Assembly (NCBI GenBank): GCA_015654835.1
Contig: JAATGG010000182.1
Location: 1-32,178 of the forward strand
Direction of reading: 5' to 3'
Source: Terriglobales bacterium
GTDB taxonomy: Bacteria > Acidobacteriota > Terriglobia > Terriglobales > Acidobacteriaceae
DNA length: 32,178 nucleotides
Shown here: positions 685 through 30,665 of the stretch, piece after piece
How positions within the stretch are numbered: the stretch's first letter is position 1
Layout of the letters: the number at the start of each line of letters is the position of its first letter
Made by a program: the position numbers and the translations under genes
The notes under the pieces: model-generated
Told to the model about the DNA's origin: nothing
The model's input: the letters and a program-made list of their open reading frames with translations, nothing else
Database searches by the model: none

Positions 685-759
685 GCGTGAGTAGTTCAGT
701 GGCAGAACGTCAGCTTCCCAAGCTGAATGTCGCCGGTTCGATCCCGGTCTCCCGCTCCA
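685..759 (+). tRNA. tRNA-Gly (anticodon CCC), CCA encoded
   Basis: The sequence folds as a full cloverleaf. The D stem is GTTC/GAAC. The anticodon stem is TCAGC/GCTGA with loop TTCCCAA, giving anticodon CCC (glycine, GGG codons). The variable loop is ATGTC, the T stem is GCCGG/CCGGT around TTCGATC, then come acceptor strand CTCCCGC, discriminator T and an encoded CCA. The acceptor stem has one mismatch: the 5' strand is GCGTGAG where GCGGGAG would pair perfectly (T688 opposite C752). An AT-rich stretch lies directly upstream. The recombinase relic next to it makes this a likely integration target. Whether the mismatch leaves the tRNA functional is open. Confidence 0.9.
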
Positions 760-5608: not shown

Positions 5609-5875
5609 CTCTGGAATATTGACTTGCGTAATTTTTGTTGCTAACTCGTCTGTGTTGTGCCAAAGTATTGTCAGTTCCGGAAAATAGGGCGCTCTGGGGT
5701 CTATGGAATGGAAGTTTATCCCGTAGAAATGCGCTCACACGTCTTTGGCGATAACAAATTCATCGCTCCTTAATTAATCTTGCTTCTACCTTTCGCAACG
5801 CCTGAGAGATGAGGCTTTCCCCGTGACTCGTGCGACAAAAACACCGAAACCGTGAAAACTGCGAAAAGAGGCAAA
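5609..5875 (+). promoter_or_regulatory. Intergenic region, probable promoter of the second transcription unit
   Basis: At 267 bases this is the largest gap inside the cluster, so a promoter for the genes from 5876 onward is expected here. A TTGACT hexamer (5619-5624) lies 17 bases before TAACTC (5642-5647): the -35 is good, the -10 is poor. A palindromic TTAATTAA sits near 5771. No Rho-independent terminator for the exporter operon is obvious. Confidence 0.3.
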
Positions 5876-7343: not shown

Positions 7344-7358
7344 GAAGTGGGAGTATGT

Positions 7359-8282
7359 GTGCCAAGCAAGATGCGGAATTGCAACTTAGCGGTACTTTAC
7401 GGAATTTGCCTTGGTTTTACGAGCTTGAGCAGCGTAGCCCAGAATGCACCTTCCTCAGATAAGGACAGGAAGACGTCTGTCGCGCAGGCAGGGCAGGATT
7501 TGAGCAACTGGTGGCGGGGGAGCTCGCTTGACTATACGCCGATTCCCGAGCAGTGGTTCGCGCATATTGAGGCGACCGTTTCCTATACCAATGCGCAGGG
7601 CAATACCACTGGTTCCACCTTTAACGGCAAAGCCGACCTCAGCGTCCGCAAGTGGCGCTTCACCTCGCGCAGCACGGGATGGATTCAGAAGCAGAACATC
7701 GTTTATGGATTCAACGCGGGATCGGCGCACGTAACGCAATCGCTGTATCGCGAGCAGGTCAACTTTGACCTGAATAAGCGGTCAGCGCTCGTCGGCGGCG
7801 TGGAGGACTACACCTTCACCCTGATCTTCATGAACAACCGCTTTACGGAGTATGGCGGATACGGCGTGGAACTGCTGAAGCAGAAGGCGCAAAAAGTATC
7901 CGTGGTTGGCGCGCTCGGTTATTCCCAGTTTGAGTTCAATCGCGTCGGCATGCTTTCGATTCCGAGCCCGATTGTGCATGCGGCTGTGCTGGCCTTACCG
8001 ACCACCACTCCCTCGGGAGGCGGCGCCATGGTGATGGAAAACTACACCCTCATCATGCCGAAGAAAATTACGCTGATCGAGAATGGCAGCTACATGAAGT
8101 TTTTCGATAGCTTCTTGGGGCACCAGGCAATGGTCGGCGCTAATCTTGATTTCCCCATTACCTCGCATATCAGCTTTTCACCGGGATACCAGTTGATCGA
8201 TCAGGATAACCAGATTATTCAAGCGCTGGGGGTTAAGACGCAGGACAGAACCCTGACGGCGGGCCTGAAATTTTCCTGGTAA
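7359..8282 (+). CDS. DUF481-like outer membrane beta-barrel protein
   Basis: About 307 residues. An N-terminal signal peptide (NLAVLYGICLGFTSLSSVAQ, cleavage likely after VAQ) is followed by alternating polar/aromatic beta strands (WFAHIEATVSYTNAQGN, FNGKADLSVRKWRF, YREQVNFDLNKRSALVGGVEDY, SFSPGYQLI) and a terminal strand ending in Phe-Ser-Trp (LTAGLKFSW), the mark of outer membrane barrels. The repeat-poor strand pattern fits DUF481. GTG 7359 is preferred because GGGAG lies 5 bases upstream; ATG 7371 is the alternative. It starts 15 bases after the phosphopantetheinyl transferase and ends 40 bases before the nucleotidyltransferase. It may be an outer membrane channel or receptor for the product; this is inference from position. 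Confidence 0.7.
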   Translation: MPSKMRNCNLAVLYGICLGFTSLSSVAQNAPSSDKDRKTSVAQAGQDLSNWWRGSSLDYTPIPEQWFAHIEATVSYTNAQGNTTGSTFNGKADLSVRKWRFTSRSTGWIQKQNIVYGFNAGSAHVTQSLYREQVNFDLNKRSALVGGVEDYTFTLIFMNNRFTEYGGYGVELLKQKAQKVSVVGALGYSQFEFNRVGMLSIPSPIVHAAVLALPTTTPSGGGAMVMENYTLIMPKKITLIENGSYMKFFDSFLGHQAMVGANLDFPITSHISFSPGYQLIDQDNQIIQALGVKTQDRTLTAGLKFSW

Positions 8283-8322
8283 ATGTCGATTACGGCTTCA
8301 TAGCAAACTGAAGGGGGCGGAG

Positions 8323-9063
8323 ATGAAGGCTCTGATTCTTGCCGGGGGGCGCGGCAAGCGCATGGAAGAGCATTCGGTGGAACGGAACAAGTGCATGCTG
8401 TTGTATGGCGGCATGCCGCTGATTCAGCATTCGCTTGAGCATTGTGCGCGCATCCAGCCGGAAGAGATAGTCATTGTTGTCGGCTACCTGGCGGAGCAAA
8501 TCATTAACTATTACGGCAACAGCTACCAGGGCATGCGCATCCGCTATGCGATCCAGAAGGAGCAGCGCGGTCTTGTTCATGCCATTGAGACCGCCGCGCC
8601 GTTCCTTGGTGCTTCCGACTTCATGCTCTTTCTGGCGGATGAGGTTCTACTCGCGCCGAATCACCTGGCCATGATGGAAGAGTTCAGCGAGGGCGGCATT
8701 TTTGCCTTATGTGGAGTGACGATTCCCCAGTCGCCGGAAGAGGTGCGCAAGACCTACGCCATTCTCGAAGATGAGGGCGGGCGCATTCTGCGGCTGGTGG
8801 AAAAGCCACGCAAGCCTCTGAACCGTTTCCAGGGAACAGGAAACATCCTTCTCAGTAACGGAATCCTTGACTACATTGCCAACACCCCGATCAACCAGTC
8901 GCGCCAGGAAAAGGAGCTGCCGGATCTGATCCAGTGCGCAATCGACGATGGGCACATCGTGAAATCGTTCCCCGTGGGCGGTCGCTACGTGAATGTCAAT
9001 TTTCCAGCGGATATTGAAGTACAAGTGGAAACGGCGTATTCCGGCGCCCATGTGGAGGGATGA
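8323..9063 (+). CDS. Sugar nucleotidyltransferase (NTP-transferase family)
   Basis: 246 residues with the nucleotidyltransferase signature LAGGRGKRM (6-14), the following KCML lysine, the metal-site LADE segment and EKPRKP. Such enzymes join a sugar-1-phosphate to an NTP to make an activated NDP-sugar, as in the RfbA/RfbF/GlmU-type families. The exact sugar cannot be read from the sequence. ATG 8323 has an excellent AAGGGGGCGGAG upstream. Its stop overlaps the start of the methyltransferase (ATGA). In this cluster it probably supplies the NDP-sugar that the two SDR epimerases modify and the three GT1 enzymes transfer. Confidence 0.85.
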   Translation: MKALILAGGRGKRMEEHSVERNKCMLLYGGMPLIQHSLEHCARIQPEEIVIVVGYLAEQIINYYGNSYQGMRIRYAIQKEQRGLVHAIETAAPFLGASDFMLFLADEVLLAPNHLAMMEEFSEGGIFALCGVTIPQSPEEVRKTYAILEDEGGRILRLVEKPRKPLNRFQGTGNILLSNGILDYIANTPINQSRQEKELPDLIQCAIDDGHIVKSFPVGGRYVNVNFPADIEVQVETAYSGAHVEG

Positions 9064-9734
9064 GCAGCATGGAGCGGATTCCCGAGCCTCTGGAACTGAT
9101 GTTGGATGCAGGCCAGGCGAATGCGTATGCCTCGGCGGACTTATCGTGTTTTAACGGAGCGTTGGTCCAGGAGTTTCAGCGCCATTTTGCGGAGTTCCGA
9201 ACCGGTTGCGTATTAGACCTGGGGTGCGGCACGGCGGATATCTCCGTGCGTTTTGCGGAGGCGTATCCCGGGGCAACCGTGATTGGTATCGATGGTTCTC
9301 CAGCCATGCTGGAGGTCGGCCGGCAATTCGTTCATGACCGGGGCCTCGCCTCGCGAATCGAATTGCGGCGCGGCTATCTCCCGCAGGCCGGGTTCGATGC
9401 GGAAAAATTCGACGCTGTGCTGGCCAACAGCTTGCTGCACCACCTGGCAGACCCGCGCGATTTGTGGAATGCCATTCGCGCCTGTGCCAGGTCCGGCGCC
9501 CCGGTTGCGGTTGTCGATGTTCTTCGTCCCGCGGATGTCGAAGCGGCGCGTGCCCTGGTGCAGAAATATGCCGGGCGGGGACATGCGGTAGTCCAGGAAG
9601 ACTTCTTCAACTCGTTATGTGCCAGCTACACGGTGGATGACGTGCGGCAGCAACTGCGAGCCACGGACTGGGAAGGCATTCAAGTAGAAACTCTGAGCGA
9701 AGTGCAGTGGGTGGCATGGGGATTTGCCGCGTAG
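9060..9734 (+). CDS. Class I SAM-dependent methyltransferase
   Basis: 224 residues with SAM motif I VLDLGCGTADIS (51-62), motif II VIGIDGSPAML and a post-motif region ANSLLHHLADP, the usual pattern of small methyltransferases (methyltransf_25/12 type). The start overlaps the nucleotidyltransferase stop in an ATGA arrangement, which implies translational coupling. The substrate is not evident. It could methylate the sugar, the aryl group or the amide of the product. It ends 43 bases before the ammonia-lyase start. Confidence 0.85.
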   Translation: MSSMERIPEPLELMLDAGQANAYASADLSCFNGALVQEFQRHFAEFRTGCVLDLGCGTADISVRFAEAYPGATVIGIDGSPAMLEVGRQFVHDRGLASRIELRRGYLPQAGFDAEKFDAVLANSLLHHLADPRDLWNAIRACARSGAPVAVVDVLRPADVEAARALVQKYAGRGHAVVQEDFFNSLCASYTVDDVRQQLRATDWEGIQVETLSEVQWVAWGFAA

Positions 9735-9777
9735 AAATTGGCGAAATGGCACGAGAAACCAGATTTCGGGAGAAGAA

Positions 9778-11430
9778 ATGGCAACGATGGCAACAAAGCT
9801 GACTCTGACTGGCACGGGATTGACTATTAAGGATGTTGCGGAAGTTGCGGCGGGTGCGCGCGTTCAACTGACGGATGACCCCGAGGCTCGCCGCGCGATT
9901 GAAGCTTCCCGCCGGTTTATTGAGGATGCCGTAGCGCGCAATGAGCCCATCTATGGTGTAACAACATGCTTCGGCGGCATGGCGGACCGTGTCGTTCCGA
10001 ATGACGAGGCCGCGGAGTTGCAGCGCAACATGGTCTGGGCGCACAAATCCGCCTCCGGAGCCCTCATTCCTAAAGAGGATGTGCGCGCCGGCATGCTCCT
10101 GCGCGCCAACTCTCTGGTACGCGGCATCTCCGGTATCCGGCCCAGGGTTCTGGAGCGCTTCGAGATCTTTCTCAACGCCGATGTAACGCCGCACGTGCAT
10201 GAGTTCGGATCGATTGGCGCCAGCGGCGACCTCGTCCCCCTGGCCTACATCGCCGGCTGCCTCACCGGTCGCGACGCTGCATACAAAGTCGATTTCAAGG
10301 GCGCGGAGATGGATTCCGTCACAGCCCTTTCACTCCTTGGCCTTGAGCCTCTGCCGCTGGAGGCAAAGGAAGCTCTGGCCCTGATGAACGGCACATCGGT
10401 AATGACCGGAATCGCAGCCAACTGCGTCTATCGCATGGCGCATCTGCTGGCGCTGACGATGGGCGCACATGGGCTGATGATGCAAGGGCTTCATGCTACC
10501 AATCAGTCCTTTCATCCCTTTATTCACAACCACAAGCCGCATACGGGCCAAATCTGGGCTGCGGAGCAGGCAATGGCTCTGCTGAACGGCTCACGGATAA
10601 TCCGGGACGAACTGGGCGGCAACGCAATCCACCGGGAAGGCAAGCTCATCCAGGACCGCTACTCCATTCGCTGCCTGCCGCAGTACCTGGGGCCGCTCGT
10701 GGACGGCTTCTGGCAGGTTGCCCGTGAAATTGAAGTCGAGGCCAACTCGGTCACAGACAATCCGCTCATCGACGTGGAGAACGAAGCAACCTATCACTGC
10801 GGCAACTTCCTCGGCCAGTATGTAGGCGAGGGAATGGACCGCCTGCGTCACATCGTAGGCATGGCGGCCAAACACCTCGACGTTCAGATCGCCCTGCTTG
10901 TTACGCCACAGTTCAATAACGGCCTGCCGCCTTCGCTGGTCGGCAACCCAGCGCGCGAGGTTTCAACGGGCCTCAAGGCCGCGCAGATTGCGGCCAACTC
11001 CATCATGCCGGTGCTCACGTTCTACGGAAACCCACTCGTGCCTCATTTTCCAACGCACGCGGAGCAGTTCAACCAGAACGTGAACAGCCTTGGCTACGGC
11101 TCGGCGAACTTGGCGCGGCAATCGCTGGATGTCTTTGAGCAATACCTCGCCCTCTCGCTCCTCTTCGCTGTGCAGGCCGTTGATCTCCGCACCTACGCCG
11201 AAGAAGGGCACTACGATGCCCGGCAGACCCTTTCGCCGGCCACGGTGTCTTTGTATGAGGCCGTGCGCGAGGTGACAGGCGTGGCGATTTCCGAGGGAAA
11301 GCCCTTCATCTGGAACGATCAGGACCAGTTCCTCGATGAACACATCGCGGTAATTCTTGCCGATATTCGCGCGCAGGGCAAGGTGCTGCGTGGCGTGAAC
11401 GGCATTGCGGCAAGCCTGCTGAACTACTAA
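9778..11430 (+). CDS. Aromatic amino acid ammonia-lyase (PAL/TAL/HAL family, MIO-type)
   Basis: 550 residues. The MIO-forming tripeptide Ala148-Ser149-Gly150 lies in GSIGASGDLVPLAY. Catalytic Tyr59 is in IYGVTT, and the C-terminal half carries TNQSFHPFIHN, DRYSIRCLPQYLGP, NSVTDNPLIDV and NQNVNSLGY. Overall it resembles cyanobacterial phenylalanine ammonia-lyase (as in Anabaena) closely. The specificity pair, Phe-Leu in PAL, His-Leu/Gln in TAL and Ser-His in histidase, is Ala88-His89 here, so the substrate is not certain. The enzyme would give cinnamate, coumarate, urocanate-like or, if an aminomutase, a beta-amino acid. No histidine-catabolism genes are near, and the next gene is an acid-activating ligase, which supports a role as starter-unit maker. 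The true start is ATG 9778 (GGGAGAAG upstream), not the longer frame. Confidence 0.92.
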   Translation: MATMATKLTLTGTGLTIKDVAEVAAGARVQLTDDPEARRAIEASRRFIEDAVARNEPIYGVTTCFGGMADRVVPNDEAAELQRNMVWAHKSASGALIPKEDVRAGMLLRANSLVRGISGIRPRVLERFEIFLNADVTPHVHEFGSIGASGDLVPLAYIAGCLTGRDAAYKVDFKGAEMDSVTALSLLGLEPLPLEAKEALALMNGTSVMTGIAANCVYRMAHLLALTMGAHGLMMQGLHATNQSFHPFIHNHKPHTGQIWAAEQAMALLNGSRIIRDELGGNAIHREGKLIQDRYSIRCLPQYLGPLVDGFWQVAREIEVEANSVTDNPLIDVENEATYHCGNFLGQYVGEGMDRLRHIVGMAAKHLDVQIALLVTPQFNNGLPPSLVGNPAREVSTGLKAAQIAANSIMPVLTFYGNPLVPHFPTHAEQFNQNVNSLGYGSANLARQSLDVFEQYLALSLLFAVQAVDLRTYAEEGHYDARQTLSPATVSLYEAVREVTGVAISEGKPFIWNDQDQFLDEHIAVILADIRAQGKVLRGVNGIAASLLNY

Positions 11431-11463
11431 GGAAGTTGCGGAAAACAGAACAGGAAACCTGCC

Positions 11464-13389
11464 ATGAATATCTTTCACCACATCGAACGTGGAGCCGCAC
11501 AGCATCCAGGGCGTCCCGCGATCCTGTTTGAAGGAAGCACAACGACCTACGGAGAGCTTGCCGGTCAGGCCGCGCGCCTGTCCGCCGCCTTGTCCACCCT
11601 GGGCGCAAAAAACGGAGATCGCGTAGCGCTGTTTTTGCCGAATCATCCCGCTACGGTGGTAGCTTTCCTCGCGGTGGTGCGGATAGGGGGGATTGCGGTG
11701 CCGTTGAATCCACGGTTGACCGCACCGGAGTTGCGCGAGGTGCTCATCGACAGTGGAGCGGAGATACTCGTCACTACGGCGGAATTGCGCGCCACCGTGT
11801 ACTCCCGCGAGCAGGCTCTGCCGCAGATTCGTCATGTCCTGATTGCCGAGGGCGATGCGGGCAGCGATCTTTCATGGGCGGATATGGTTGCGGTGGAGCC
11901 GGATGCCGCAAGCGCGAAAATGCCCGGAGATGCTCCGGCGGTGATCGTTTATACCTCCGGCACCACGGGCAGCCCCAAGGGCGTTACGCTGTCCCACGGA
12001 AACGTCGATTTCGTGATGCAGCGGAAGGTCGAGTACATGGGCGTCACGCCTGGGGACAGGCTCCTGCTCTTCCTTCCGCTTTCGCACTGTTTTGGATTGA
12101 ACGCAGTGCTGAATGCCGCCTTCGCTGGCGGGGCGAGCGTGGTTCTACATCGCCGCTTTGAAGCCGAGGAGGTATTGCGCTCAATCTCTCGTGACAAGGT
12201 GACCATGTTTTTCGGCGTTCCGACCATCTTCGTGCTGCTGCTTGAAAAAGCAAAGCCGGAACAGCTTCATGGAGTGCGGTATTTCTTCTCTGGCGGAGCG
12301 CTGCTTCCGCGCGACGTGGAAGACCATTGGCGCGACCGCTTCGGGCACTTGATTTACCAGGGGTACGGCCTGACGGAATGCTCTCCGTTTGCCACCTACA
12401 ACCATAAGAGCCAACATCGCATGGGCAGCATCGGAGAAGCTGTGCGAGGCGTTGAGATCGCGATTCGCGATGTGCAATCCGGGCGGCATCTGCCTGCGGG
12501 CGAGCGCGGCGAAATCCTGCTGCGCGGCCCGAATATCATGCTGGGCTACTGGCACAAGCCGGAAGAGACGGCAGATAGCATTCGCAACGGATGGCTGCAT
12601 ACGGGAGACATAGGCCGGCTGGATGAGGAAGGATATCTCCGCATTGAAGACCGCCTCAAGGATATGGTCATTGTCGGCGGCGCGAATGTGTATCCGGCGG
12701 AGGTAGAGCAGGTTCTGCGGCTCCATCCGGCGGTGCTGGAAGTCGCCGCGTACGGCAAGCCGGATGCGGTGCTCGGCGAGCGGGTTTGTGCCTCCGTGGT
12801 CCTGCGCGAGTCGTTCGGAGTCAGCTTCCAGGAGTTAACGGATTTTGCCGCCGCGCGCCTCGTGGAGTACAAACTGCCGACGCGGATTGAATTTCTGCCG
12901 GAGCTTCCCAAGGGGCCGACAGGCAAGGTACTCAAGCGCGTTTTGCGGGAAAGGAACAGCGTTGTAGCGTCGCCGGAGAGGATGCGGTTGGAGCATAAGG
13001 ACGCAGTGCCCATCGCTGCCAATGCGCGGGAGCTGGCGGACCGTGTTACGAACTGGCTGGCCGGGACGCTGGAAGCGGACAGGCGCTTTATCGCGAGCAA
13101 TGTTCCTTTCTCTGAGCTGGGCCTGACCTCCCTGATGTCGGTTGAGCTTGCCGGGAGGCTCTGTGGGTGGGTTGGCCGCGCGCTCCCGCCAACAATTGCA
13201 TGGCAGTTCCCCACGGTAGATTCGCTCGTGAGCCACTGCATGAACGGGCATCGTGTCACGGCTGCCAGAATCGTTTCCACAGAGCTCCTGCCGGTGCCGA
13301 GCAGGTTCGACGACATGCAGGAAGCAGACGCCGCGGCGCTTTTGCGCGAAGAACTGGCAAGGATGAACTGGTCGGGGGAGACGGTATGA
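11464..13389 (+). CDS. AMP-dependent acyl/aryl ligase fused to an acyl carrier protein (loading unit)
   Basis: 641 residues. An acyl-adenylate-forming domain covers 1 to about 510, with the P-loop YTSGTTGSPKG (from residue 163), YGLTECSP (about 302), GWLHTGDIG (about 377), VIVGGANVYPAEVE and PKGPTGKVLKR. It is closest to 4-coumarate-CoA ligase/acyl-CoA ligase-like enzymes. A carrier domain follows at about 525-600; its phosphopantetheine serine is Ser556 in the motif GLTSLM. This CAL-ACP layout activates a carboxylic acid and loads it on its own ACP, without needing CoA. Directly after the ammonia-lyase (33-base gap), the natural substrate is the arylacrylate it makes. The stop overlaps the PKS start (ATGA), so PKS translation is coupled to it. 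Confidence 0.9.
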   Translation: MNIFHHIERGAAQHPGRPAILFEGSTTTYGELAGQAARLSAALSTLGAKNGDRVALFLPNHPATVVAFLAVVRIGGIAVPLNPRLTAPELREVLIDSGAEILVTTAELRATVYSREQALPQIRHVLIAEGDAGSDLSWADMVAVEPDAASAKMPGDAPAVIVYTSGTTGSPKGVTLSHGNVDFVMQRKVEYMGVTPGDRLLLFLPLSHCFGLNAVLNAAFAGGASVVLHRRFEAEEVLRSISRDKVTMFFGVPTIFVLLLEKAKPEQLHGVRYFFSGGALLPRDVEDHWRDRFGHLIYQGYGLTECSPFATYNHKSQHRMGSIGEAVRGVEIAIRDVQSGRHLPAGERGEILLRGPNIMLGYWHKPEETADSIRNGWLHTGDIGRLDEEGYLRIEDRLKDMVIVGGANVYPAEVEQVLRLHPAVLEVAAYGKPDAVLGERVCASVVLRESFGVSFQELTDFAAARLVEYKLPTRIEFLPELPKGPTGKVLKRVLRERNSVVASPERMRLEHKDAVPIAANARELADRVTNWLAGTLEADRRFIASNVPFSELGLTSLMSVELAGRLCGWVGRALPPTIAWQFPTVDSLVSHCMNGHRVTAARIVSTELLPVPSRFDDMQEADAAALLREELARMNWSGETV

Positions 13390-16300
13390 GCAGCCCTTCC
13401 AATCCCGCCGGGGCGGGAACGGATACATCGCTCGTCAAGCAGGCCCTGGCGGCCTTGCGGAACCTGCAGAACCAGTTGGACGACGAACGGCGTCGGCAGA
13501 CGGAGCCGATTGCCATCCTGGGAATGGGCTGCCGCTACCCCGGCGCGGCCAGTCCGGAAGAGCTTTGGCAATTGCTGCTGAGCGGTACCGATGCGATTTC
13601 AGAGGTTCCCGAAAGCCGCTGGAATACGGATGGCCTGTATGACGGCGATACTTCCAGGCCGGCAAAGCTGCCGACGCGGCGCGGAGGCTTTCTGCCGGAT
13701 CTCGACCGGATGGATGCGGCGTTCTTCGGCATCTCGCCGCGCGAGGCTCCGCACGTCGATCCGCGCCAGCGCATCCTGCTGGAGATTGCATGGGAGGCAT
13801 TGGAAGACGCCGGAATTCCGCCGGATTCGCTGGCAGGCAGCAAGACCAGCATCTTTCTCTCCACGCTGACCAACGACTACGATCACCTGCTCTTCAACGA
13901 TCTGCGCCGCGCGGAGATTTACTCCGGCGCGGGCACCGCGAACAGCGTAGTAGCCAACCGCATCTCCTATTTCCTCGACCTGCATGGGCCAAGCGTTGCG
14001 CTGGATACGGCCTGCTCAGGCTCGCTGGTAGCGGTACACCTTGCCTGCGAGAGCCTGCGCAAAGGGGAGAGCACGTTAGCGCTGGCCGGCGGCGTAAGCA
14101 TCAACCTGATGGCCAAGAGCAACGTCTTCTTCGCGCGTTCCGGGGCGCTGTCTCCAGCGGGATTATGCCGCACTTTCGATGCCTCCGCGGACGGCATCGT
14201 GCGCAGCGACGGCGCGGGAATCCTGGTGTTGAAGCGGCTCTCGGAAGCGCTCCGCGACGGCGATCCGGTACTGGCGGTGGTGCGCGGCAGCGCGGTAAAT
14301 CACGACGGGCGCAGCAACGGCATCATGGCTCCCAACGGCGCAGCGCAGCGCGAGGTGCTGGCGGAGGCTTACAAGCGCGCGGGTGTGCCGCCTGCGCTTG
14401 TGCAGTACGTCGAGCTTCACGGAACCGGCACCCCGCTGGGCGATCCAATCGAGGCGCAGGCGCTGCTGGATGTTTTGGGAACGGGGCGCTCGCCGGATGA
14501 CCGGTGCGTGGTGGGTTCGTTGAAATCAAATGTTGGGCATAGCGAAGCCGCCGCCGGCGCCGGCGCAATTATCAAGACCGTGCTTTCCATGCGCCACCGG
14601 AAGATTCCCTCCACGGCGCATTTTCAGGCGCTGAACCCCATGATTCCCTTCGAGGGAACGCCGTTTCACGTAGCGGGCCGCGCGGAGGCATGGCCGGGAG
14701 AGCGTGCCAGCCGCCTTGGGGAGCGGTCATTGCTGGCAGGCGTAAGCGGTTTCGGCTTTGGCGGAACAAATGCGCACATCGTCATTGAGGAAGCCCCGGC
14801 AGCTGTCCGCGCGGAACGCGCTCTCTCCACGCGGCCTGCATACATTCTTCCCATCTCCGCCGCACACCCGTCGGCACTAGCCGAACTGGCTTCGCGTTTT
14901 GAAGAGACGCTTCAGCATTCCTCCGCAACGGCGGGAGACATCTGCGCGGCTGCGGCGCTCAGAAGAACCCATTTCAGCGTGCGCAACGCCGCAATTGGCG
15001 AAAACAAGGAAGAGCTGTTGCAGGCTCTGCATTCCACCCGCGCGGCGACTGGTGCAAACCATGCGGGCCGAATGGCATTTGTCTTCTCCGGGCAGGGCTC
15101 GCACTGGGCAGGCATGGGCAGGCAGCTGGATAACTGTGAGCCAGTCTTTCGTGCCGCGCTGGACGAATGCGAAGAGCTGCTGGCAAGGCTCTGCGGTTGG
15201 TCGCTGCGTACGGCAATTCATGGCAATGCGCTGGAGAGCAACGACACCGCGATTGTGCAGCCCGCAATCTTCTCCATGCAAGCTGCGCTGGGCGAGTTGT
15301 GGCGCACTTGGGGAATCACTCCCGATTTCGTTGTCGGCCACAGCCTCGGAGAGTCCGCTGCCGCATACTTTGCCGGAGTGCTAAGCCTGGAGGATGCTCT
15401 GCGCGTGGTCGTAGAGCGCAGCCGCCTGATGAAACGCAGGGCGGGATACGGCAAGACCGCCGTAGTGGGTCTTCCACTCGCGGAAGCGGAAATCGAGGTT
15501 CGCGGCTTTGCTCCGCATCTCGCCGTAGCGGGAACCAACAGCCCACGGGCAAGCGTGCTTTCCGGAACCCCGGAGGCCATCGATGGGCTATTACGGAAGC
15601 TCATGCCCCGTGGAGTCTTTTGCCGCGAAGTTGCCGGAGTGGACATCGCCTTCCACTCACCGCAGATGGATTCCTTGAAAGACGAATTAGTGGTTTCTCT
15701 CAGCGGCATGGATCCGCAGCCGGAAGCCATTCCCATCGTCTCCACCGTTACCGGAAAGCCGCAGCCGGGCGAGAGCTTCGATGCCGCCTATTGGGGCCGT
15801 AACCTGCGTGATCCGTTCCTGTTTACGCAGGCCGTTGAGCATCTCTTGCGGCAGGGGTGCGATACCTTCGTGGAAGTCAGTCCGCACGCCGTGCTCACTT
15901 CCTCCATCCTGCAAACAGCGCAAGCCGCCGGTGCTGCTTCCGTAGCGGCAATCGCTACGCTGCGCAAGGGCCGCGCGGATGAGCTCCGCTGCGTCTATGA
16001 GTCGCTGGCCGGTCTTTATGCGCAGGGCCGGAGTGTGAACTGGCAAGCGGTGTACTCCCAACCCGCGCCCGTTGTCGCCCTGCCGCATTATCCATGGCAG
16101 CGCCAAAGGTACTGGTTCGATCAACTCGACAGCACGCCGGACACGGCGGAAGCGCCCCTAGCTCAGCCGGTTCCGCCCGGCCTGCATCCGCTGCTCGGCG
16201 CGCGCGTCGACGCGGCTTTCGCCTCTGGAGAAGGCGTCACTCTCTGGCAAAATTCGCTCGCCGAAGATGCGCCGCGTTATCTGGCGGATCATCGCGTGCG

Positions 16301-24800: not shown

Positions 24801-25059
24801 CTATAGCATCTCAGGCAAGCATCCCGGTGTGCGCATCCATCTGTACCGTACGGAACACACCCCGGGACACCGCCCGGAGCTTGAGCAGGACCGTGCATGG
24901 GGATGGAGCGCCGCCGGAGAAGTGGAAGTCATCGATGTGCCGGGCGAGCATCTTTCGCTGCTCCGTCCGCCGCATGTTCAGAAGCTGGCGTCAGCAATGG
25001 GGCAGGATATGCGGTTCCTGGGCAAAACAGCCGCGCCCGTGGAACTTGCCGAGGCATAG
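18883..25059 (+). CDS. Hybrid PKS-NRPS KS-(no AT)-ACP-C-A-PCP-TE
   Basis: 2058 residues; the start (AAGGAG) overlaps the PKS stop by 11 bases. Order: N-terminal coiled coil (1-25); KS 27-450, with Cys204 (TACSSS), His339 and His376; then the KS-AT linker and post-AT linker (LPTYAFQRDRYW, about 594-605) joined with no AT between; ACP with Ser674 (GVDSLM). The C domain (about 720-1140) has motif HHILCDLQS (861-869). The A domain (about 1180-1680) has YTSGSTGRPKG (1340) and pocket residues D1386 A1387 T1390 K1428 V1454 G1456 E1480 V1488 G1489 K1673, closest to known Asn codes. The PCP carries Ser1728 (GGHSL). TE (about 1780-2040) has Ser1858 (GHSLGG) and His2023. It adds one amino acid to the polyketide chain and releases the product by hydrolysis or cyclisation. 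Confidence 0.92.
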   Translation: MAADQAELLKDALLTIRSLRARLKAAEDAAKEPIAVTGIGCRFPGADSPEKFWRLLRDGVDAIGPVPPNRWDKDVFYDPDPDAPGKMYLREGGFLRDVEGFDAAFFGIAPREALRLDPQQRIMLEVCWEALEDAGIAPDSLAGSATGVFAGVMNGDYAFRQAHHLTAESVDPYMLAGSDLSFVAGRVAHFLGLQGPALTSATACSSSLVAVHQACQALRRRECDLALAGGVSLIFDPTTPLMLTKLRALAPDGRSKTFDASANGYGRGEGCGVVVLRRFSDALAAHDRILAVIRGSAVNHDGHSAGLTVPNGQAQERVIRRALDEAGVLPPDVSYVETHGTGTSLGDPIEVHALGRVFAGRGQPVALGAVKTNIGHLEAAAGIASFIKVVLMLSHREIPPHLHLETPNPHIRWAETPVRVPVVREAWRSHGEQRIAGVSSFGISGINAHTVLAEAPQWIAPEAGIQDRQLHLLALSTRTAPALESQIQGMTEWLAGHPDASWADVCFTANTGRAQFTHRVAIVAASIAEARALLPSALRAVAQRHSSEIASAPSHEEEASERGFLESCAARFLAGARLDWASFEKPYLPLRNRLSLPTYAFQRDRYWALSDQPFAEAHEPALAESKAAASSNPPLIPGDAASISSWLRHQVQMVLGLTSFPPADIPLLELGVDSLMSQELRNAIQRETGVDIDLGEFVSGADIAALAQTVTQKSGRASSTVQSLHESAASTSLLSPGQAALWFVHRSSPRSAAYNVGVAVTVQGAMSLDLLQRALEPLAMRHPLLRTVFQESDAGTPEAVLLSRAHVAVHGVNAEGLSEEQLAAQVKASCAQPFDLASVPACRATLFTQSPGSHILLLSLHHILCDLQSCGTLLDEIVKLCEAEIAGRKMEFPPLRHSYAEFVLRQHELLTGSEGERQRNYWQNRLAGDLPLLDLPLDKPRPRIPVFEGATEAFVIPSALTGELRILAREQKVTLFALLLAAYQVLLARWSGQQDVITGVATSVRPDGFDGVFGYFVNPVAVRGSVADNPDFTAFLARTRQSLLDAIAYRELPFPAVVEAVVKHRDPGRLPVIQADFALNSRPAAFRSTAPGAALSIGPFDLAEEEGQFDLSLHCTEEKDSILARFKYNTGLFHARSARCMADSFLHLLHALTRNPSQPVAGLPILTQEEHGALLQAGTGEVRDWRGEDVIRIFERQVKLFPSAVAVELFSSAGGTIAEVTYNELNAQANRLARRIRGANASRVGIHVHRSVEMVVAVLAALKARASYVPLDPSYPAERLAYMIADAGVDLILHDAPENESALNPSVRAFRITPDAAADEESSNNLNLAGEAHEIAYVLYTSGSTGRPKGARITRAGLTNYLAWCVEAYEVSKGSGAPVNTAFGFDATVTSLFSPLLAGRRVVLLPEESTIEELAALLCVRKGFSLIKITPAQLEMLGQLLPDEDAPGCARAFVIGGEALHRAVLEKWQRHAPQTRLINEYGPTETVVGCAIYEVPGASATGDGAAIPIGKPIANTSLYILDANGELVPPGVIGELAIGGAGVASGYENRADLTAERFVHDSFRGVPGARMYRSGDLARWRADGELEFLGRADMQVKLRGYRIELGEIESVLREQPGVSECVVSVHGQSLVAHLVASAQENILRSALAARLPDYMVPGWFVFLDQLPLTTNGKVDRRSLPTPRLERASHSAAPPRDSLEVRLKAIWEEVLPDVSLGIHDNFFESGGHSLLAVRLVARVRREFQRDVPLSVILHSATIAAMADWLRAEPASLTATALVPIQPRGSRPPVFCVPGAGGNAIYLHNLARQLGPDQPFYGLQGRGMEGEAEPHTTVEAMADYYLDAIRSVQPEGPYSLAGHSLGGWVVFEMTHRLRLAGQEVAFLGIIDTPVPAAEDTAGRSGWSDARWIAQLAQRIAQLLNPALHVPEEALEPLDHAAQMEYLRNALIAAEVFPGQAGVDVLEHTLALFKAHAAVRYSISGKHPGVRIHLYRTEHTPGHRPELEQDRAWGWSAAGEVEVIDVPGEHLSLLRPPHVQKLASAMGQDMRFLGKTAAPVELAEA

Positions 25060-25072
25060 AGAGGAAGGAAAC

Positions 25073-26311
25073 GTGGCAAGGGTTGTCGTACTGAATCTGC
25101 CCGAGTATGGGCACATGAACGCCACTTATCCCGTGGTCGCCGAGCTTGCGCGGCGCGGGGAAGAGATTATCTATTATTCGACAGAGCCCTTCCGTGCGAA
25201 CATTGCCGCGGCGGGCGCAAAGTTTGCCGGTTATGGCGATGCAGAGCTCTTTATTCCTCCCGCGCACACCGGAGGATTGCACTCCGTAATGGCATGGGAG
25301 ATGGGCCTCGCCGAACATCTGCTTCCCCGCCTCGTCGAGGAAGTCAGGAACGCGCGCCCGGACTACCTGTTAATCGATTCCATGTGCGTCTGGGGCAATC
25401 TTCTGCGGCAGGTGCTGCAACTCCCCGCCGTCTGCATGGCCTCGGTCTTCGTGCCGAACGACCGCTTCGTCACAGTCGAGGACATGGTGCGTATCGCCTA
25501 CAGCCAGGCGCCCAAGCCGGTGCTGCTCGCCGGTATCGATGCGATGAACTCCTACATCGAAACCTCGCGCCGCATCGATCATCGTTTTGGAACCCTCAGT
25601 CCCAATGTCGTGGAGTTCTTCTCCAATCGCCAGCAACTCAATCTCCTCTTTACCTCGCGCGAGTTTCACCCGGAAGGAAACTCGTTCGGCCCGGAATACA
25701 AGTTCGCAGGCCCCATGCTCGACTTCCAGCGGCAAGACATTCCCACAGAGGACGCCATTCCATCTTCCGGCGATGTGCCTCTCGTGTATGTTTCCCTGGG
25801 AACCATCTTCAACAATCAACCGGAGTTCTTCCGAGCCTGCATTAAAGCGTACGCCGATGCGCCATATCGCGTATGGATCGCGGCTGGCCGCAAGGTGGAC
25901 CTGGCGGCATTCGGGCAGCTCCCGTCCAACATCGCAATGCGCGAGTATGTGCCGCAGCTTGCTGTTTTGAAGCAGGCCGCGCTATTCATAACTCACGGAG
26001 GCATGAACAGCGTCAGCGAAGCGCTTGCTCACGGGGTCCCTCTGCTTGTCTTTCCGCAGCACGGCGACCAGCATCTTGTCGCGGCCCAGGTCGTGCGCGC
26101 CGGGGCGGGAATCCGTCTCACTCCGCCGGATATAACGCCGCAGCGTTTGCGCGACCTTGCGGAAACAGTTCTGCGCGAGCAGCATTTCGCCGATGCCGCC
26201 AAAGCTGTCCAGGAATCCTTTGCGCAGTGCGGCGGAGCGGGAGCGGCCGCCGATGCCGTCCTGGAGTTTGCCGCCTCCACCGTCGAAACGAAAGCAGGCA
26301 GCAGGGCATAA
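25073..26311 (+). CDS. GT1 glycosyltransferase A (macrolide glycosyltransferase type)
   Basis: 412 residues in the two-Rossmann GT-B fold of family GT1 (MGT type): N-terminal LNLPEYGHMNATYPVVAEL, a central LVYVSLGT and the C-terminal donor-binding block FITHGGMNSVSEAL...GVPLLVFPQHGDQ, ending in the usual Asp332-Gln333. The start is GTG 25073, with GAGGAAGGAA just upstream; the longer in-frame sequence is inside the NRPS gene. It lies 13 bases behind the NRPS stop. It would move a sugar from an NDP-sugar to the cluster product. It is clearly related to the other two GT genes here (shared RRGE, TEPFRA, FITHGG patterns), so local duplication is likely. Confidence 0.9.
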   Translation: MARVVVLNLPEYGHMNATYPVVAELARRGEEIIYYSTEPFRANIAAAGAKFAGYGDAELFIPPAHTGGLHSVMAWEMGLAEHLLPRLVEEVRNARPDYLLIDSMCVWGNLLRQVLQLPAVCMASVFVPNDRFVTVEDMVRIAYSQAPKPVLLAGIDAMNSYIETSRRIDHRFGTLSPNVVEFFSNRQQLNLLFTSREFHPEGNSFGPEYKFAGPMLDFQRQDIPTEDAIPSSGDVPLVYVSLGTIFNNQPEFFRACIKAYADAPYRVWIAAGRKVDLAAFGQLPSNIAMREYVPQLAVLKQAALFITHGGMNSVSEALAHGVPLLVFPQHGDQHLVAAQVVRAGAGIRLTPPDITPQRLRDLAETVLREQHFADAAKAVQESFAQCGGAGAAADAVLEFAASTVETKAGSRA

Positions 26312-27552
26312 TGGCAACCATTTGCATGATCGGCCATCCCGCGCCGGGGCACATCAATCCGACGCTGCCCGTCGTTGCGGAGCTTGTGCGGCGCGGCGAG
26401 CGCGTGCACTACTTTGCCACGGAGCCGTTCCGCGCCAAAATCGAGCAAACCGGTGCCGCGTATCATTCCCTCGGCCAGCAAAGCATCTTCGAGCGCAATC
26501 TCGCACGCGGCGGGATACTTGGCGGCATGTCCGGGCTGATGGAGTCCACCGAGGAGATTCTCCCCAATCTGCTTAGCGAGGTAGAAGCGCTCGCGCCTGA
26601 TTTGCTGCTCACGGAAGCGCACGCGCTCTGGGGCAACCTGCTCGCGCAGATCCTCCAGGTGCCCACCGTCACGCTCTGCTCCATGTTCGCCATCAACTCA
26701 AGGCTTATCTCCGCGGAGCAGTTCGCGGGACACATGTATGCAACAGCGGACTCGGCGCGGGACGGCCTGCTGGAGATGAACCGTTACTATGAGACGGCGC
26801 GCCGTCTCGACCGCCGCTATGGAACGCGCAGCCCCGGCATGATCGATTACCTCGGCAATCCTCAGGAATTGAATATCGTCTTCACGGCCCGCGAATTTCA
26901 GATCGGCCCGGAAGCATTTGACGCGAGTTATCAATTTGCAGGTCCCACTTCAGGCATTCGCATGGAAGGCGCGGCGCCCGCATCGGACTTCAATCTCGCC
27001 GCTCTTCGCCCGCCGGTAATCTTCATCGCCATGGGCACCATGTATAACGAAGAGATTGCCCTGTACAAGGCATGTTTTGAGGCATTCTCCAGTGCGCTAT
27101 TCCAGGTTGTCATGGCGATTGGGCATCGTGTCGATCCCGCGGCGCTGGGCAAGGTTCCTGAAAACTTCAGGATTGAGCCCTATGTGCCGCAACTGGGCGT
27201 TCTTGAGCGCGCCGCGCTCTTCATCACCCACGGCGGCATCAACAGCGCGCATGAGGCAATGATGGCCGGCGTTCCCATGCTGGTACTTCCCGCGGCCGCC
27301 GACCATTTCGTAGTCGCCGGGCAGGTCGAAGCAATCGGCGCGGGCATCGTACTGCATCGCAGGCAGGCAACCGCGGAGTTGCTGCGCCAATACGCGGATC
27401 GCATCCTCAATACTCCTTCCTTCCGCGACCGCTCCGCGAAGACCGGCAAAGCCTTGCGTGAAGCAGGCGGCGCAGGCCGGGCCGCCGACGTAATCCTAAG
27501 CTTCATGCAAAGCAAAATAATCTCCAGGGAGGCGGATCATGTTCGCATTTGA
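26311..27552 (+). CDS. GT1 glycosyltransferase B, donor-site Gln replaced by His
   Basis: 413 residues, the same fold and motifs as the previous gene: MIGHPAPGHINPTLPVVAEL, TEPFRAKIEQTG, IFIAMGT and FITHGGINSAHEAM...GVPMLVLPAAADH. The last two residues of the donor motif are Asp331-His332, where the paralogues have Asp-Gln. In plant GT1 enzymes this position influences glucose versus galactose use, so a different donor is possible. The ATG shares one base with the previous stop (TAATG) and the end overlaps the FkbM gene by 14 bases, so translation is coupled. Confidence 0.9.
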   Translation: MATICMIGHPAPGHINPTLPVVAELVRRGERVHYFATEPFRAKIEQTGAAYHSLGQQSIFERNLARGGILGGMSGLMESTEEILPNLLSEVEALAPDLLLTEAHALWGNLLAQILQVPTVTLCSMFAINSRLISAEQFAGHMYATADSARDGLLEMNRYYETARRLDRRYGTRSPGMIDYLGNPQELNIVFTAREFQIGPEAFDASYQFAGPTSGIRMEGAAPASDFNLAALRPPVIFIAMGTMYNEEIALYKACFEAFSSALFQVVMAIGHRVDPAALGKVPENFRIEPYVPQLGVLERAALFITHGGINSAHEAMMAGVPMLVLPAAADHFVVAGQVEAIGAGIVLHRRQATAELLRQYADRILNTPSFRDRSAKTGKALREAGGAGRAADVILSFMQSKIISREADHVRI

Positions 27553-28330
27553 GTTACGGTTTAAGCGGCCTCAGACCATCGTGCAGGTTGGAGCGCATTC
27601 GGGCAACGATGCGCTGATCGCCGCGTGCCGCGAGCACGGGCACAGGCTCTATATGTTTGAGCCGAACCCTCGGCGCGTAGCGGAGCTGCGGCAAAAAGCC
27701 GCCGGCTCAAGCACGGTCTTCGTCATTCCCCAGGCCGTTTCCGTGGCTGAAGGACGCGCCAAATTCCACATCGCCAACCATGATGATTGCTCTTCGCTGC
27801 GCTCTTTCGCGGAAGATGTCAATCAGACGTGGGTACACGAGTGGCACCCCTACAAAAGCTTCGAGATGGTCGAGGAGGTAGAAGTAGATGTAGTTCGTCT
27901 CGATGCCTTTATGAAGAGCCGCGAGATCGCCGCCATCGACTTTCTCCTCGTTGACGCGCAGGGAGAAGACCTGCGCGTAGTGGAATCGCTGGGCGAGCGG
28001 GCCAGGGACGTAAAGAAGATTCAAATGGAGATCAACATTCACGCCCCGCTCTATCAGGAAAGCTTCGGCATGAATGACGCTCTCTCCCAAATGAGCGCTC
28101 TCGGCTTTGACCTGCACGCTTCATGGAAGCAGTCCCTCAACCGCGAAGTCAATGCCGTCTTTCGCAATCGCCGCTTCTATCCCAACGCGGTTCTCAACAA
28201 GCTGTCGGCCTTCACCGAGCAGCATTCGGTCTCCGCATATCAAGGGTGGCAAAAACTTCCGCGTGTCTTGGCCGTCACGCGCATGATGCTGGGGCGCAAG
28301 CTGATGGGCCGCAAGAGCCAGGCGGCATAA
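27539..28330 (+). CDS. FkbM-family methyltransferase
   Basis: 263 residues with the FkbM pattern: SAM-site VQVGAHSGNDA (near the start), MFEPNPRR, QAVSVAEG and the conserved VDVVRLDAFM and DFLLVDAQGEDLRVVESL. The family does O-methylation of sugars and polyketides, for example in FK506 biosynthesis. ATG 27539 follows GGGAGGCGG and overlaps the upstream GT gene. Being between two glycosyltransferases, a sugar hydroxyl is the likeliest target; this is inference. Confidence 0.87.
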   Translation: MFAFELRFKRPQTIVQVGAHSGNDALIAACREHGHRLYMFEPNPRRVAELRQKAAGSSTVFVIPQAVSVAEGRAKFHIANHDDCSSLRSFAEDVNQTWVHEWHPYKSFEMVEEVEVDVVRLDAFMKSREIAAIDFLLVDAQGEDLRVVESLGERARDVKKIQMEINIHAPLYQESFGMNDALSQMSALGFDLHASWKQSLNREVNAVFRNRRFYPNAVLNKLSAFTEQHSVSAYQGWQKLPRVLAVTRMMLGRKLMGRKSQAA

Positions 28331-28362
28331 ACGAATTTGCAACCGGCAAGGAGACTTACGAT

Positions 28363-29418
28363 ATGAAAGTTCTGGTAACAGGCGGCTGCGGTTTTCTCGG
28401 ATACCACGTCTGCATGCACTTCCGCGCAAAGGGCGCGGAGGTAGTGGCCTACGACAATCTCGCGAAGCACGAGTTTGCCCGCATCCCCTACATGCGCGCC
28501 GAAGCCCGCGGCTTCAATCTCGAAAAGCTGCGCGCAGCCGGCGTGCAAGTCGCGACTGAAGACATCCGCGACGCGGAAACGTTGGCGCACTTCGCCGCAG
28601 GCAGTGATTTCCTCTGCCACACCGCGGCGCAGCCGGCCATGACCATCGCGTGTGAAAATCCCAGGCTGGACTTCTCCACCAACACGCTCGGCACCTTTAA
28701 TGTGCTGGAAGCCGCACGCACCGCGTCCATTCCCGTGGCCGTCTGCTCCAGCATCCACACCTTCGGCCCCGACGGCATCAATCACTCGCTCACCCAATCG
28801 GAGACGCGCTACGAGCGCACCCCCGTTGCAATTGCGGAAGACGAGCCGCTGCTGCAAGGCGCGGTCACACCGCTCCACGCCTCCAAGCGCGCCAATGAGA
28901 TCTACGTGCAGAGCTACATCGACACCTACAAGCTTCCCGCCGCCTGCTTCCGCCTCACCGGCATCTACGGCCCCAACCAGTTCGGTGGAGAAGACCACGG
29001 CTGGGTAGCAAACTTCGCGATCCGCGCTCTGCTCGGCTTGCCGCTCACCATCTTCGGCACCGGCAAGCAACTGCGCGATATTCTCTATGCCGAAGATGCC
29101 GCCCAGGCCTTTGAATCCTTCTATGACTCCCAGAAGCCGGGCATCTATAACATCGGCGGCGGCACGCCCAACAGGATATCCCTGCTGGAATGTATCTCCC
29201 TCATCGAGCGCCTCACGGGCAAAAAAGCCGATGTGCGTTTCGGCGAAGGCCGTTTCGGTGATCTCCACTACTTCGTTGCCGACCATAGCCGCTTCACCGG
29301 CGCAACAGCATGGAAGCCGTCCGTACAGCCGGAGCAGGGAATCGCCAGCCTTGTCGCCTGGGTGCAGGCCAATCCGGAACTGTTTTCCGCTTCTGAAGTG
29401 CTCGCCGCAACCAACTGA
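28363..29418 (+). CDS. NAD-dependent epimerase/dehydratase (second extended SDR)
   Basis: 351 residues with the Rossmann motif TGGCGFLG (6-13), HTAAQPAMT, VCSSIHTFGPDG, FRLTGIYGPNQFGGEDHGWVANF and GKQLRDILY, typical of nucleotide-sugar SDRs of the CDP-paratose epimerase/UDP-glucose epimerase group. ATG 28363 has AAGGAGA upstream. The YxxxK motif reads LHASK (L171...K175), so Tyr is missing, as in the SDR at 2675 where it is Phe. Either the catalytic acid is another residue or the reaction differs. It presumably makes the sugar for the neighbouring glycosyltransferases. A GT gene follows 17 bases downstream. Confidence 0.85.
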   Translation: MKVLVTGGCGFLGYHVCMHFRAKGAEVVAYDNLAKHEFARIPYMRAEARGFNLEKLRAAGVQVATEDIRDAETLAHFAAGSDFLCHTAAQPAMTIACENPRLDFSTNTLGTFNVLEAARTASIPVAVCSSIHTFGPDGINHSLTQSETRYERTPVAIAEDEPLLQGAVTPLHASKRANEIYVQSYIDTYKLPAACFRLTGIYGPNQFGGEDHGWVANFAIRALLGLPLTIFGTGKQLRDILYAEDAAQAFESFYDSQKPGIYNIGGGTPNRISLLECISLIERLTGKKADVRFGEGRFGDLHYFVADHSRFTGATAWKPSVQPEQGIASLVAWVQANPELFSASEVLAATN

Positions 29419-29435
29419 GAGAGCAGAGAAAAAGC

Positions 29436-30665
29436 ATGGCGACAGCGGTATTTCTGAGCTTCCCGGTACACGGACACCTGGCCCCGGCTTTGGGCGTGGT
29501 CAGCGAGCTTGTGCGTCGTGGCGAAAGAGTCATCTTTTTCGCCACCGGGAGGTCACGCTCCAAAGTCGAGGCAACCGGAGCCGAATTCCGCAACTATCGT
29601 CACGGTCACGACGAGTTCAATCCCAACCCGCCCACCGAAGGCCTCTTCAGTGATATGGCGCGGTTAAGCGCCCTTTCGCGCCAACTCATTCCCGAACTTC
29701 TCGAAGACCTCGCAGGCGAGTCCATCGACTATTGCCTCATCGATACCAAAAGCCTCTGGGGCCGTCTCGTTGCCCAGGCGCTCAAGCTCCGTGCCATAAC
29801 CTTTTCCGTGGTCTTCGCCATCCGCCCCGGCGTCGTTCCGCCGGCCGAGCTGGTCAACATGCTCTACGGCGGAGCCTCGCAGGAGGGACTGCTGCGAGGA
29901 CTGACCGCATTCAACGAGTACTTCGACACGGTTCGCAGCATCGACCACGAACACGCCACCGTCTCTCCCGGCATTATCGAGTACCTCGGCAACCCGCACC
30001 CGCTCAACATCATCTTCACCTCGCGAGCGTTTCAAATCGGCGAGGAGGCATTTGGCCCGCAATACAAATTTGTCGGCCCTTCCGTCTTGCCCGGACGGGA
30101 TGCGGCCATTCCCTTTCCCTTCGATAAGCTAAATCCAGCCCTGCCGCTTATTTACATCTCGCTCGGCACAACCTTCTTCCAGGCCGATGATTTTTATCGA
30201 TCCTGTTTTGAAGCCTTCGCGGATGCGCCATGCCAGGTAGTGCTCTCCTGCGGCCCGGGAGGCAAAGCACGATTCGCCAATCCGCCAGAGAACTTCCTCG
30301 TCGAGGAGTTTGTGCCCCAGATGAAATTGCTTGAGCGCACCAGTCTCTTCGTTACGCACGGAGGCATGAACAGCGCAAACGAAGGGCTCTTGCTTGGTAT
30401 TCCGCTGCTCGTCATTCCCCAGCGCGGCGACCAGTTCCTGGTCGGGCAGCGTGTCACGGAACTCGGCGCTGGTCTTGCATTGCATCCGCGCAACGCCGAT
30501 GCGGCCAGCCTGCGCACTGCGGCGCTGCGCATTTTAGAGAACCCATCTTTCAAGGCAGGTGCGGAAGCATTAGGCCAGTCTCTTCGTCAGGCCGGAGGCT
30601 ACGTCCGCGCGGCGGAAGAGATTCTCACCTGCGTAGGCTCCCGGCATGCTTCCATCGCGGTATAG
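29436..30665 (+). CDS. GT1 glycosyltransferase C (macrolide glycosyltransferase type)
   Basis: 409 residues, the third GT1 paralogue: FLSFPVHGHLAPALGVVSEL, IYISLGTTFF, FVTHGGMNSANEG...GIPLLVIPQRGDQ, with the standard Asp332-Gln333. The start is ATG 29436. It is the last recognisable gene of the rightward cluster. With A and B it suggests a product carrying up to three sugars, or sugars at different positions. It is more distant from A and B in its first domain (no TEPFRA), which may reflect a different acceptor. Confidence 0.9.
   Translation: MATAVFLSFPVHGHLAPALGVVSELVRRGERVIFFATGRSRSKVEATGAEFRNYRHGHDEFNPNPPTEGLFSDMARLSALSRQLIPELLEDLAGESIDYCLIDTKSLWGRLVAQALKLRAITFSVVFAIRPGVVPPAELVNMLYGGASQEGLLRGLTAFNEYFDTVRSIDHEHATVSPGIIEYLGNPHPLNIIFTSRAFQIGEEAFGPQYKFVGPSVLPGRDAAIPFPFDKLNPALPLIYISLGTTFFQADDFYRSCFEAFADAPCQVVLSCGPGGKARFANPPENFLVEEFVPQMKLLERTSLFVTHGGMNSANEGLLLGIPLLVIPQRGDQFLVGQRVTELGAGLALHPRNADAASLRTAALRILENPSFKAGAEALGQSLRQAGGYVRAAEEILTCVGSRHASIAV

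Follow-up and report, generated by a model that had tools for sequence, protein, structure and literature searches.

A candidate gene cluster for glycosylated aryl-polyenoyl tetramic acids from asparagine in a Terriglobales genome

Which product could be assembled where an aromatic ammonia-lyase, polyketide synthase (PKS) and nonribosomal peptide synthetase (NRPS) modules and three glycosyltransferases lie together is the question raised by contig JAATGG010000182.1 of a Terriglobales bacterium (assembly GCA_015654835.1). The whole contig of 32,178 nucleotides (contig 251 in a 4.71-Mb genome of 280 contigs, completeness 91.65%) was analysed and is called the window here. From 8323 to 30665 the genes follow in the order nucleotidyltransferase, methyltransferase, lyase, ligase-ACP, PKS1, PKS2-NRPS, GT1, GT2, FkbM methyltransferase, short-chain dehydrogenase/reductase (SDR) and GT3 (Table 1). 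These genes, their order, their domains and motifs, and the absence of one AT domain are read directly from the DNA. The balance of probability appears to lie slightly in favour of a glycosylated 3-(aryl-polyenoyl) tetramic acid made from asparagine, with substrates, number of rounds, ring closure and glycosylation sites as presumed below.

In the proposed pathway the lyase would form an arylacrylate by deaminating an aromatic amino acid, for which tyrosine is the likeliest candidate, and the ligase-ACP would activate and hold the arylacrylate. PKS1 would add one malonate, or more if used repeatedly, and leave a double bond; the AT-less PKS2 would add one unreduced malonate in trans, most simply by means of the PKS1 AT. 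Asparagine would then be joined by the NRPS module, and the TE would close the ring by Dieckmann condensation. The three glycosyltransferases could extend a single sugar chain or act at different positions; the nucleotidyltransferase and SDR genes would provide the sugars, and the methyltransferases would cap them. For a coumaroyl start and one use of PKS1, the computed aglycone is C17H16N2O5, [M+H]+ 329.113; the corresponding computed value is 313.118 for a cinnamoyl start and 347.124 for the hydrolysed coumaroyl acid, and each additional round would add 26.016.

Evidence for this pathway comes from PKS2-NRPS. Its KS, post-KS linker, post-AT linker LPTYAFQRDRYW, ACP, C, A, PCP and TE are present, and the domain scan of this protein found no AT, KR or DH; by pattern the Cys-His-His residues of the KS, the carrier serines and the GHSLGG motif of the TE are intact. 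Bacterial PKS-NRPS tetramate synthases likewise end in an unreduced PKS module with a single C-A-PCP behind it. Since the last PKS module has neither KR nor DH, the chain reaching asparagine would be a beta-keto acyl chain. Landmark extraction gave the A code DATKVGEVGK, both in the window and in L013, a locus of the Gemmatimonadetes metagenome-assembled genome (MAG) NP952. In the zeamine cluster, two A domains with this code were predicted to take asparagine (PMC3547906), and DATKIGEVGK is listed with a characterised D-Asn/Asp (PMC10391617); a survey cautions that overlap can occur between codes of the Asp, Asn, Glu and Gln types (PMC12283262). Asparagine is the predicted substrate of the window's A domain. 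Because an unreduced last PKS module, C-A-PCP-TE and this code occur together, release is expected through ring closure by the TE, giving a 3-acyl tetramic acid and not an open N-acyl amino acid. Bacterial tetramates close by TE domains or TE-like enzymes, in some cases by Dieckmann closure with C-terminal Ser-Asp-His TE domains (PMC10956176).

A preliminary description, made earlier from the sequence of this DNA, had named the gene classes correctly: curated profiles were found for the lyase, ligase, PKS1, PKS2, three glycosyltransferases, two methyltransferases, nucleotidyltransferase and SDR. Its chain of arylacrylate, aryl-dienoyl, possibly a further C2, one amino acid and sugars fits the order of the domains, but that the second PKS module has no AT, KR or DH had escaped it. 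The Asn-like amino acid agrees with the code; in place of the open aryl-polyene amino acid proposed then, Dieckmann closure of a beta-keto acyl chain to a tetramic acid would now be expected.

PKS2 is 300 residues shorter than its counterpart in L013, and the missing part is the AT. Since this relative has the same module with an AT, the domain was probably lost from PKS2; without it, malonate must come in trans. L013 was found by a contig scan with six exact peptide patterns, an insensitive method, which gave 22 stretches at six loci, one of them (L013) covering PKS2 residues 4-2036. There, KS-AT-DH-KR-ACP is followed by KS-AT-ACP-C-A-PCP-TE, and an SDR adjoins. Apart from the AT kept in its second module, L013 differs in that its 14-kb contig has no lyase, glycosyltransferase or separate ligase match, a ligase match occurring only inside the A domain. 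Identities to PKS2 are 64% for KS, 47% for A, 46% for PCP, 40% for TE and 38% for C and ACP; the two PKS1 proteins are 37.6% identical. In a tree of eight KS domains, which were caught by motif pattern in 11 sources (several KS of L042, L043 and plasmid loci were left out), the PKS2 KS pairs with the second KS of L013 at 96/96, the only well-supported of five inner branches. KS identity by itself was discarded as proof of kinship with L013: the KS of L041 is equally close (62.6% vs 62.1% for L013; 533 vs 543 bits), and the pairing of window and L013 comes from the tree alone. Upstream in L013 lies a 198-aa open reading frame (ORF) resembling FAD-dependent halogenases/monooxygenases, with all models under cut-off, and L013 (1-14344) is possibly a halogenated tetramate cluster.

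Elsewhere in the group of L013, KS matches at E <= 1e-120 occur in 21 of 64 genomes (that of L013 included); the stretches from three other genomes of this group showed no Asn module, L041 being a 7.9-kb contig and L042 cut inside the C domain. L014, whose A domain has the letters DATKIGEVG and 49% identity to that of the window, was set aside: it is an NRPS of four modules that has a TE but lacks a KS. In the plasmid collection, 3086 records held relatives of PKS2, 3715 relatives of the ligase and 855 a lyase match, and in no case did identity reach 60%. Of the 12 plasmid relatives of PKS2 that were listed, five were read, and none of these has an ammonia-lyase annotated in the stretch; A domains were detected in three of the five, all without the Asn letters, and none in L058 and L062.

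For the start of the chain, an arylacrylate is inferred as substrate of the ligase-ACP because the lyase adjoins the ligase. The lyase translation contains the Ala-Ser-Gly triad of 4-methylideneimidazole-5-one (MIO) enzymes (GSIGASGDL). Its four best PDB sequences (711-718 bits) are 3czo, 2nyn, 5ltm and 2nyf, deposited respectively as histidine ammonia-lyase (HAL), phenylalanine/histidine ammonia-lyase, phenylalanine ammonia lyase (PAL) and Nostoc punctiforme PAL; the fifth, 9eq5, is named histidine ammonia-lyase and scores 490 bits. The second motif reads FNQN, aligned with FNQN of PALs, and we take it to be the place at which a Gln/Glu difference separates the classes. Gln is given for PAL and tyrosine ammonia-lyase (TAL), Glu for HAL (PMC3992019). 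A histidine lyase was not the first choice for this gene, since FNQN carries Gln and the genome's other PF00221 gene is the more typical (653.2 bits vs 485.4 in the genome-wide profile search). Tyrosine or another para-substituted phenylalanine would be our guess for the substrate. With at most three candidates scored per listed genome, the own genome was the only one among 397 of the order to match the ligase at E <= 1e-110, and the only one among 396 of the phylum to match the lyase at E <= 1e-95; at 1e-3 the lyase matched in 41 of 60 genomes (own included), with a best identity of 39% outside the window.

In PKS1, the KS (Cys-His-His), DH (HxxxGxxxxP and DxxxQ), KR (S-Y-N) and carrier serine are intact by pattern, and the letters IAFHS at the specificity site of its AT presumably indicate malonyl. 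Inspection of the translations by eye showed similar acidic tails on the ligase, PKS1 and PKS1 of L013, and helical-looking leaders on PKS1 and PKS2, which may be docking parts. As one reducing module could act a single time or repeatedly, the sequence does not fix how long the polyene would be.

Several observations weigh against the aryl-polyenoyl tetramate. The two best PDB relatives of the ligase are a fatty-acyl-CoA synthase (8weu), which comes first, and a feruloyl-CoA synthetase (8wev), with 4-coumarate ligases lower; long-chain acyl-CoA ligase models lead its NCBIfam matches, and none of the models listed is over cut-off. With the MIO enzyme, all NCBIfam lyase and mutase models stayed under their cut-offs, and the top-scoring PDB entry, 3czo, bears the name of a histidine ammonia-lyase; this name decides nothing alone, because 3czo, like 2nyn and 5ltm, is presumably Anabaena PAL. 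The selectivity pair of the lyase is Ala-His, that of the five PDB relatives Phe-Leu, and Ala stands where Phe or His is expected of the PAL/TAL class. We assume that a small residue followed by His occurs in some HALs, TALs and tyrosine mutases. For HAL this disagrees with PMC8773403, where the first pocket position is Phe in PAL and HAL, His, contacting the tyrosine hydroxyl, in TAL of R. sphaeroides, and Tyr in a true TAL of Streptomyces clavuligerus; in view of the latter enzyme, the Phe/His rule is not strict. Ala-His also differs from the His-first pair given for TAL (PMC3992019). With no lyase match on its 14-kb contig, L013 lends no support to an aryl start, and the sugar genes are not diagnostic. 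In C domains the HHxxxD motif is usually followed by G; here it reads HHILCDLQ, departing from HHxxxDG in the missing G. PKS2 has no AT of its own, and no search for a trans-AT elsewhere in the genome was made. Finally, TE domains of this kind are also capable of hydrolysis, and the ring closure is a prediction.

Hydrolysis by the TE would yield an open N-(3-oxo-aryl-polyenoyl) asparagine with its sugars on the phenol or at another position, which is close to the preliminary description. The TE has an ordinary GHSLGG motif and PF00975, and no feature was found in it that proves cyclisation; on the other hand, a beta-keto amide is a Dieckmann substrate, and cis TEs carry out this closure in some bacterial tetramate lines (PMC10956176), so that we regard the open product as unlikely. 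A decaying cluster, stopped by the loss of the PKS2 AT, would account for the missing AT core and for two short ORFs, AbiEii-like and LysR, on the right edge. Yet the gap leaves the reading frame intact, the linkers on its two sides align with L013, the serine of the ACP has been retained and the other cluster genes are open frames, which makes decay improbable.

Iterative use of PKS1 would place a long aryl polyene, nearer to aurantoside length, on the tetramate, and as a variant of the tetramate pathway it overlaps with it in probability. L013 likewise has one reducing module before its Asn module, and the polyene of aurantoside L is long (PMC11050911). Marks of an iterative KS were neither tested for nor seen, and the PKS1 proteins of window and L013 are not close in sequence. 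Iteration seems doubtful, though it deserves some weight. As mutases and lyases share the MIO fold, the enzyme could also be an aminomutase and the starter a beta-amino acid. TIGR04475 and TIGR03832 did match, under their cut-offs, but chains named aminomutase or AdmH reach 201-261 bits where the cyanobacterial-type lyases mentioned above score far higher, and a mutase is very improbable.

Flexirubin chains are built by other synthases. Their start is nevertheless similar, in that the tyrosine ammonia-lyase FlxA and a 4-coumarate ligase supply 4-coumaroyl (PMC3992019), as the lyase and ligase of the window might; the window's lyase is nearer to the Nostoc PAL type than to the FlxA model, with which it scores 283.5 bits against a cut-off of 700 (NCBIfam). 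Bripiodionen and other bacterial PKS-NRPS tetramates have a terminal NRPS module with Dieckmann release, such as is predicted for the window, and bripiodionen also needs an Asn unit (PMC10956176); the lines named there have free-standing Cys-type cyclases, whereas a cis Ser-type TE, a predicted arylacrylate start and three glycosyltransferases belong to the window.

The nearest described chemistry is that of the aurantosides and rubrosides (ats cluster), tetramic acids whose side chain bears a primary amide, and which have a conjugated polyene, three sugars and a sugar O-methyl group (PMC11050911). Aurantoside L has xylose, arabinose and an O-methylated 5-deoxypentose, and hydrolysis in the aurantoside series gives L-aspartic acid (PMC11050911), so that the amino acid is Asn or Asp, for which we infer Asn. 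The compounds were assigned to the Chloroflexi symbiont 'Candidatus Poriflexus aureus' (PMC7024214, PMC12858407). Their polyene is chlorinated and, in the accounts available, without an aryl starter. Among the window ORFs scanned with Pfam there was no halogenase (the rest of the genome was not searched). Since its genes include no halogenase and its starter differs, the window would not be an aurantoside cluster; the likeness, drawn from the chemistry described, may concern the last steps only. The three glycosyltransferases would correspond in number to the three aurantoside sugars. No known compound family had been recognised in the preliminary description, and in fact no matching cluster was met in the searches, nor was a described cluster or compound with this gene set found in the literature, which is weak evidence, subscription literature being mostly outside reach; the aurantosides had not been named there.

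Table 1. Features of the window, in order of position, with the evidence for each assignment
Feature	Position	Strand	Evidence and remarks
tRNA-Gly (CCC)	685..759	+	ARAGORN; landmark left of the gene set
NAD-dependent sugar-nucleotide SDR	2675..3733	+	PF01370 (longer ORF from 2600)
ABC exporter, 'cyclic peptide export' subfamily	3758..5392	+	TIGR01194, 324.3 bits (cut-off 286.2)
DUF697 protein	5852..6622	+	PF05128; first gene of co-directional run, overlaps next gene
4'-Phosphopantetheinyl transferase (PPTase), predicted	6588..7343	+	PF01648; no NCBIfam cut-off reached
DUF481 protein	7347..8282	+	PF04338
Sugar-1-phosphate nucleotidyltransferase	8323..9063	+	PF00483; NCBIfam models far under cut-offs
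Class I S-adenosylmethionine (SAM) methyltransferase	9060..9734	+	PF13649 and others; no NCBIfam cut-off reached
MIO aromatic amino acid ammonia-lyase	9778..11430	+	PF00221, 484.9 bits
Acyl ligase fused to acyl carrier domain (loading unit)	11464..13389	+	PF00501, PF13193, PF00550
PKS1: KS-AT-DH-KR-ACP	13386..18893	+	Domain scan and motif patterns
PKS2-NRPS: KS-(no AT)-ACP-C-A(Asn, predicted)-PCP-TE	18883..25059	+	Domain scan; AT gap against L013
Glycosyltransferase 1 (GT1; MGT/YjiC type)	25073..26311	+	TIGR01426, 328.2 bits
Glycosyltransferase 2 (GT2)	26311..27552	+	TIGR01426, 338.4 bits
FkbM-family methyltransferase	27539..28330	+	TIGR01444, PF05050
SDR	28363..29418	+	Best PDB relatives CDP-tyvelose 2-epimerase; no NCBIfam cut-off reached
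Glycosyltransferase 3 (GT3)	29436..30665	+	TIGR01426, 302.1 bits
AbiEii-like ORF, 106 aa	30991-31311	+	PF08843; right margin of cluster
Short LysR-type regulator ORF, 202 aa	31319-31927	-	Right margin of cluster

All three glycosyltransferases exceed the TIGR01426 (MGT) cut-off of 260 bits, and GT1 and GT2 are macrolide-type enzymes. Gene starts were refined downstream of the mechanical ORFs for the lyase (9778), PKS1 (13386), GT1 (25073), GT2 (26311) and the SDR at 28363. The single direction and the overlaps described earlier hold for 14 genes (5852-30665), all on the + strand and spaced by -35 to +43 nt. In 5300-14000 and in 24900-31400, promoter- and terminator-like sites did not clearly exceed those in shuffles (in the latter stretch, 4 promoter-like sites against a shuffle mean of 2.0), so that the presumed co-transcription is judged from the spacing. 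The cluster had also been called complete; the gene set is indeed present, but a left boundary at 8323 lies too far right, and the contig stops at 32178, 1.5 kb past the last glycosyltransferase. The set probably extends to the left of 8323, because the PPTase at 6588 shares the run and a peptide-type ABC exporter and a sugar SDR lie at 2675-5392. The exporter sits 24 nt behind this SDR, and its end is 459 nt left of the run; it is probably the product exporter, and the predicted PPTase would activate the carrier domains. The DUF481 protein, matched in 1 of 59 genus genomes (its own, and 0 of 58 others), is possibly an outer-membrane part, which is a guess.

The left SDR (start ATG 2675 read by eye; comparisons used 2672) is a possible cluster member. 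With the SDR adjoining L013 it shares 54% identity across 201 aa, but as proof of kinship this is weakened by genes with 54-58% identity in 7 of 58 other genus genomes; in six of these seven (6.8-19.9 kb read), the only matches to cluster proteins were SDRs and one weak ABC match (27.6%). Paired SDR genes were observed in host relatives, in L052 (9061-11149), L053 (9499-11599), L054 (1736-4062) and L056 (557-2749), where the stretches read had no PKS protein matches; they may represent a sugar-nucleotide cassette.

The G+C content is 61.1% for 8323-30665 and 54.2% for 1-2600. An RpoC fragment of the host genome shares 96% identity over 848 residues with RpoC of the genome that holds L017 (Acidobacteriaceae bacterium JOPF070), compared with 51-67% for the pieces matched in four other genomes, which places the host in the Acidobacteriota close to JOPF070. 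No 16S gene of the host was found, and TIGR03437 had no match, as in the control genomes. The tRNA-Gly, partly with bases just upstream, has matches of up to 99% in further species of the genus, which supports the binning of the window; most of the listed DNA matches in the genus come from this region. Right after it, 760-8300 is DNA with few listed matches in other genus species: among the matches listed for 59 genus genomes (own included; five candidates scored per genome), none of those to 600-8300 lay outside the tRNA region and the SDR gene (65-68%). The region 685-8300 may mark a strain-specific island at the tRNA-Gly; no second copy of the tRNA end was found in the window, and the two left ORFs scanned with Pfam gave no match.

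Tentatively, and with less confidence than for the tetramate pathway as such, the cluster could be taken to encode undescribed arylpolyenoyl asparagine tetramates with up to three sugars in Acidobacteriota, in which a cinnamoyl-type starter precedes an aurantoside-like Asn module whose own AT was lost and replaced in trans by its neighbour. The prediction is concrete in formula, mass, chromophore and sugar losses. L013 and the window look like a natural example of a cis-AT module before and after it lost its AT, and the pair should be useful for studying how a module without an AT is supplied by the AT next to it. If the prediction is true, tetramate glycosides of the aurantoside kind would not be confined to sponge symbionts, and a PAL-type starter could be joined to them.

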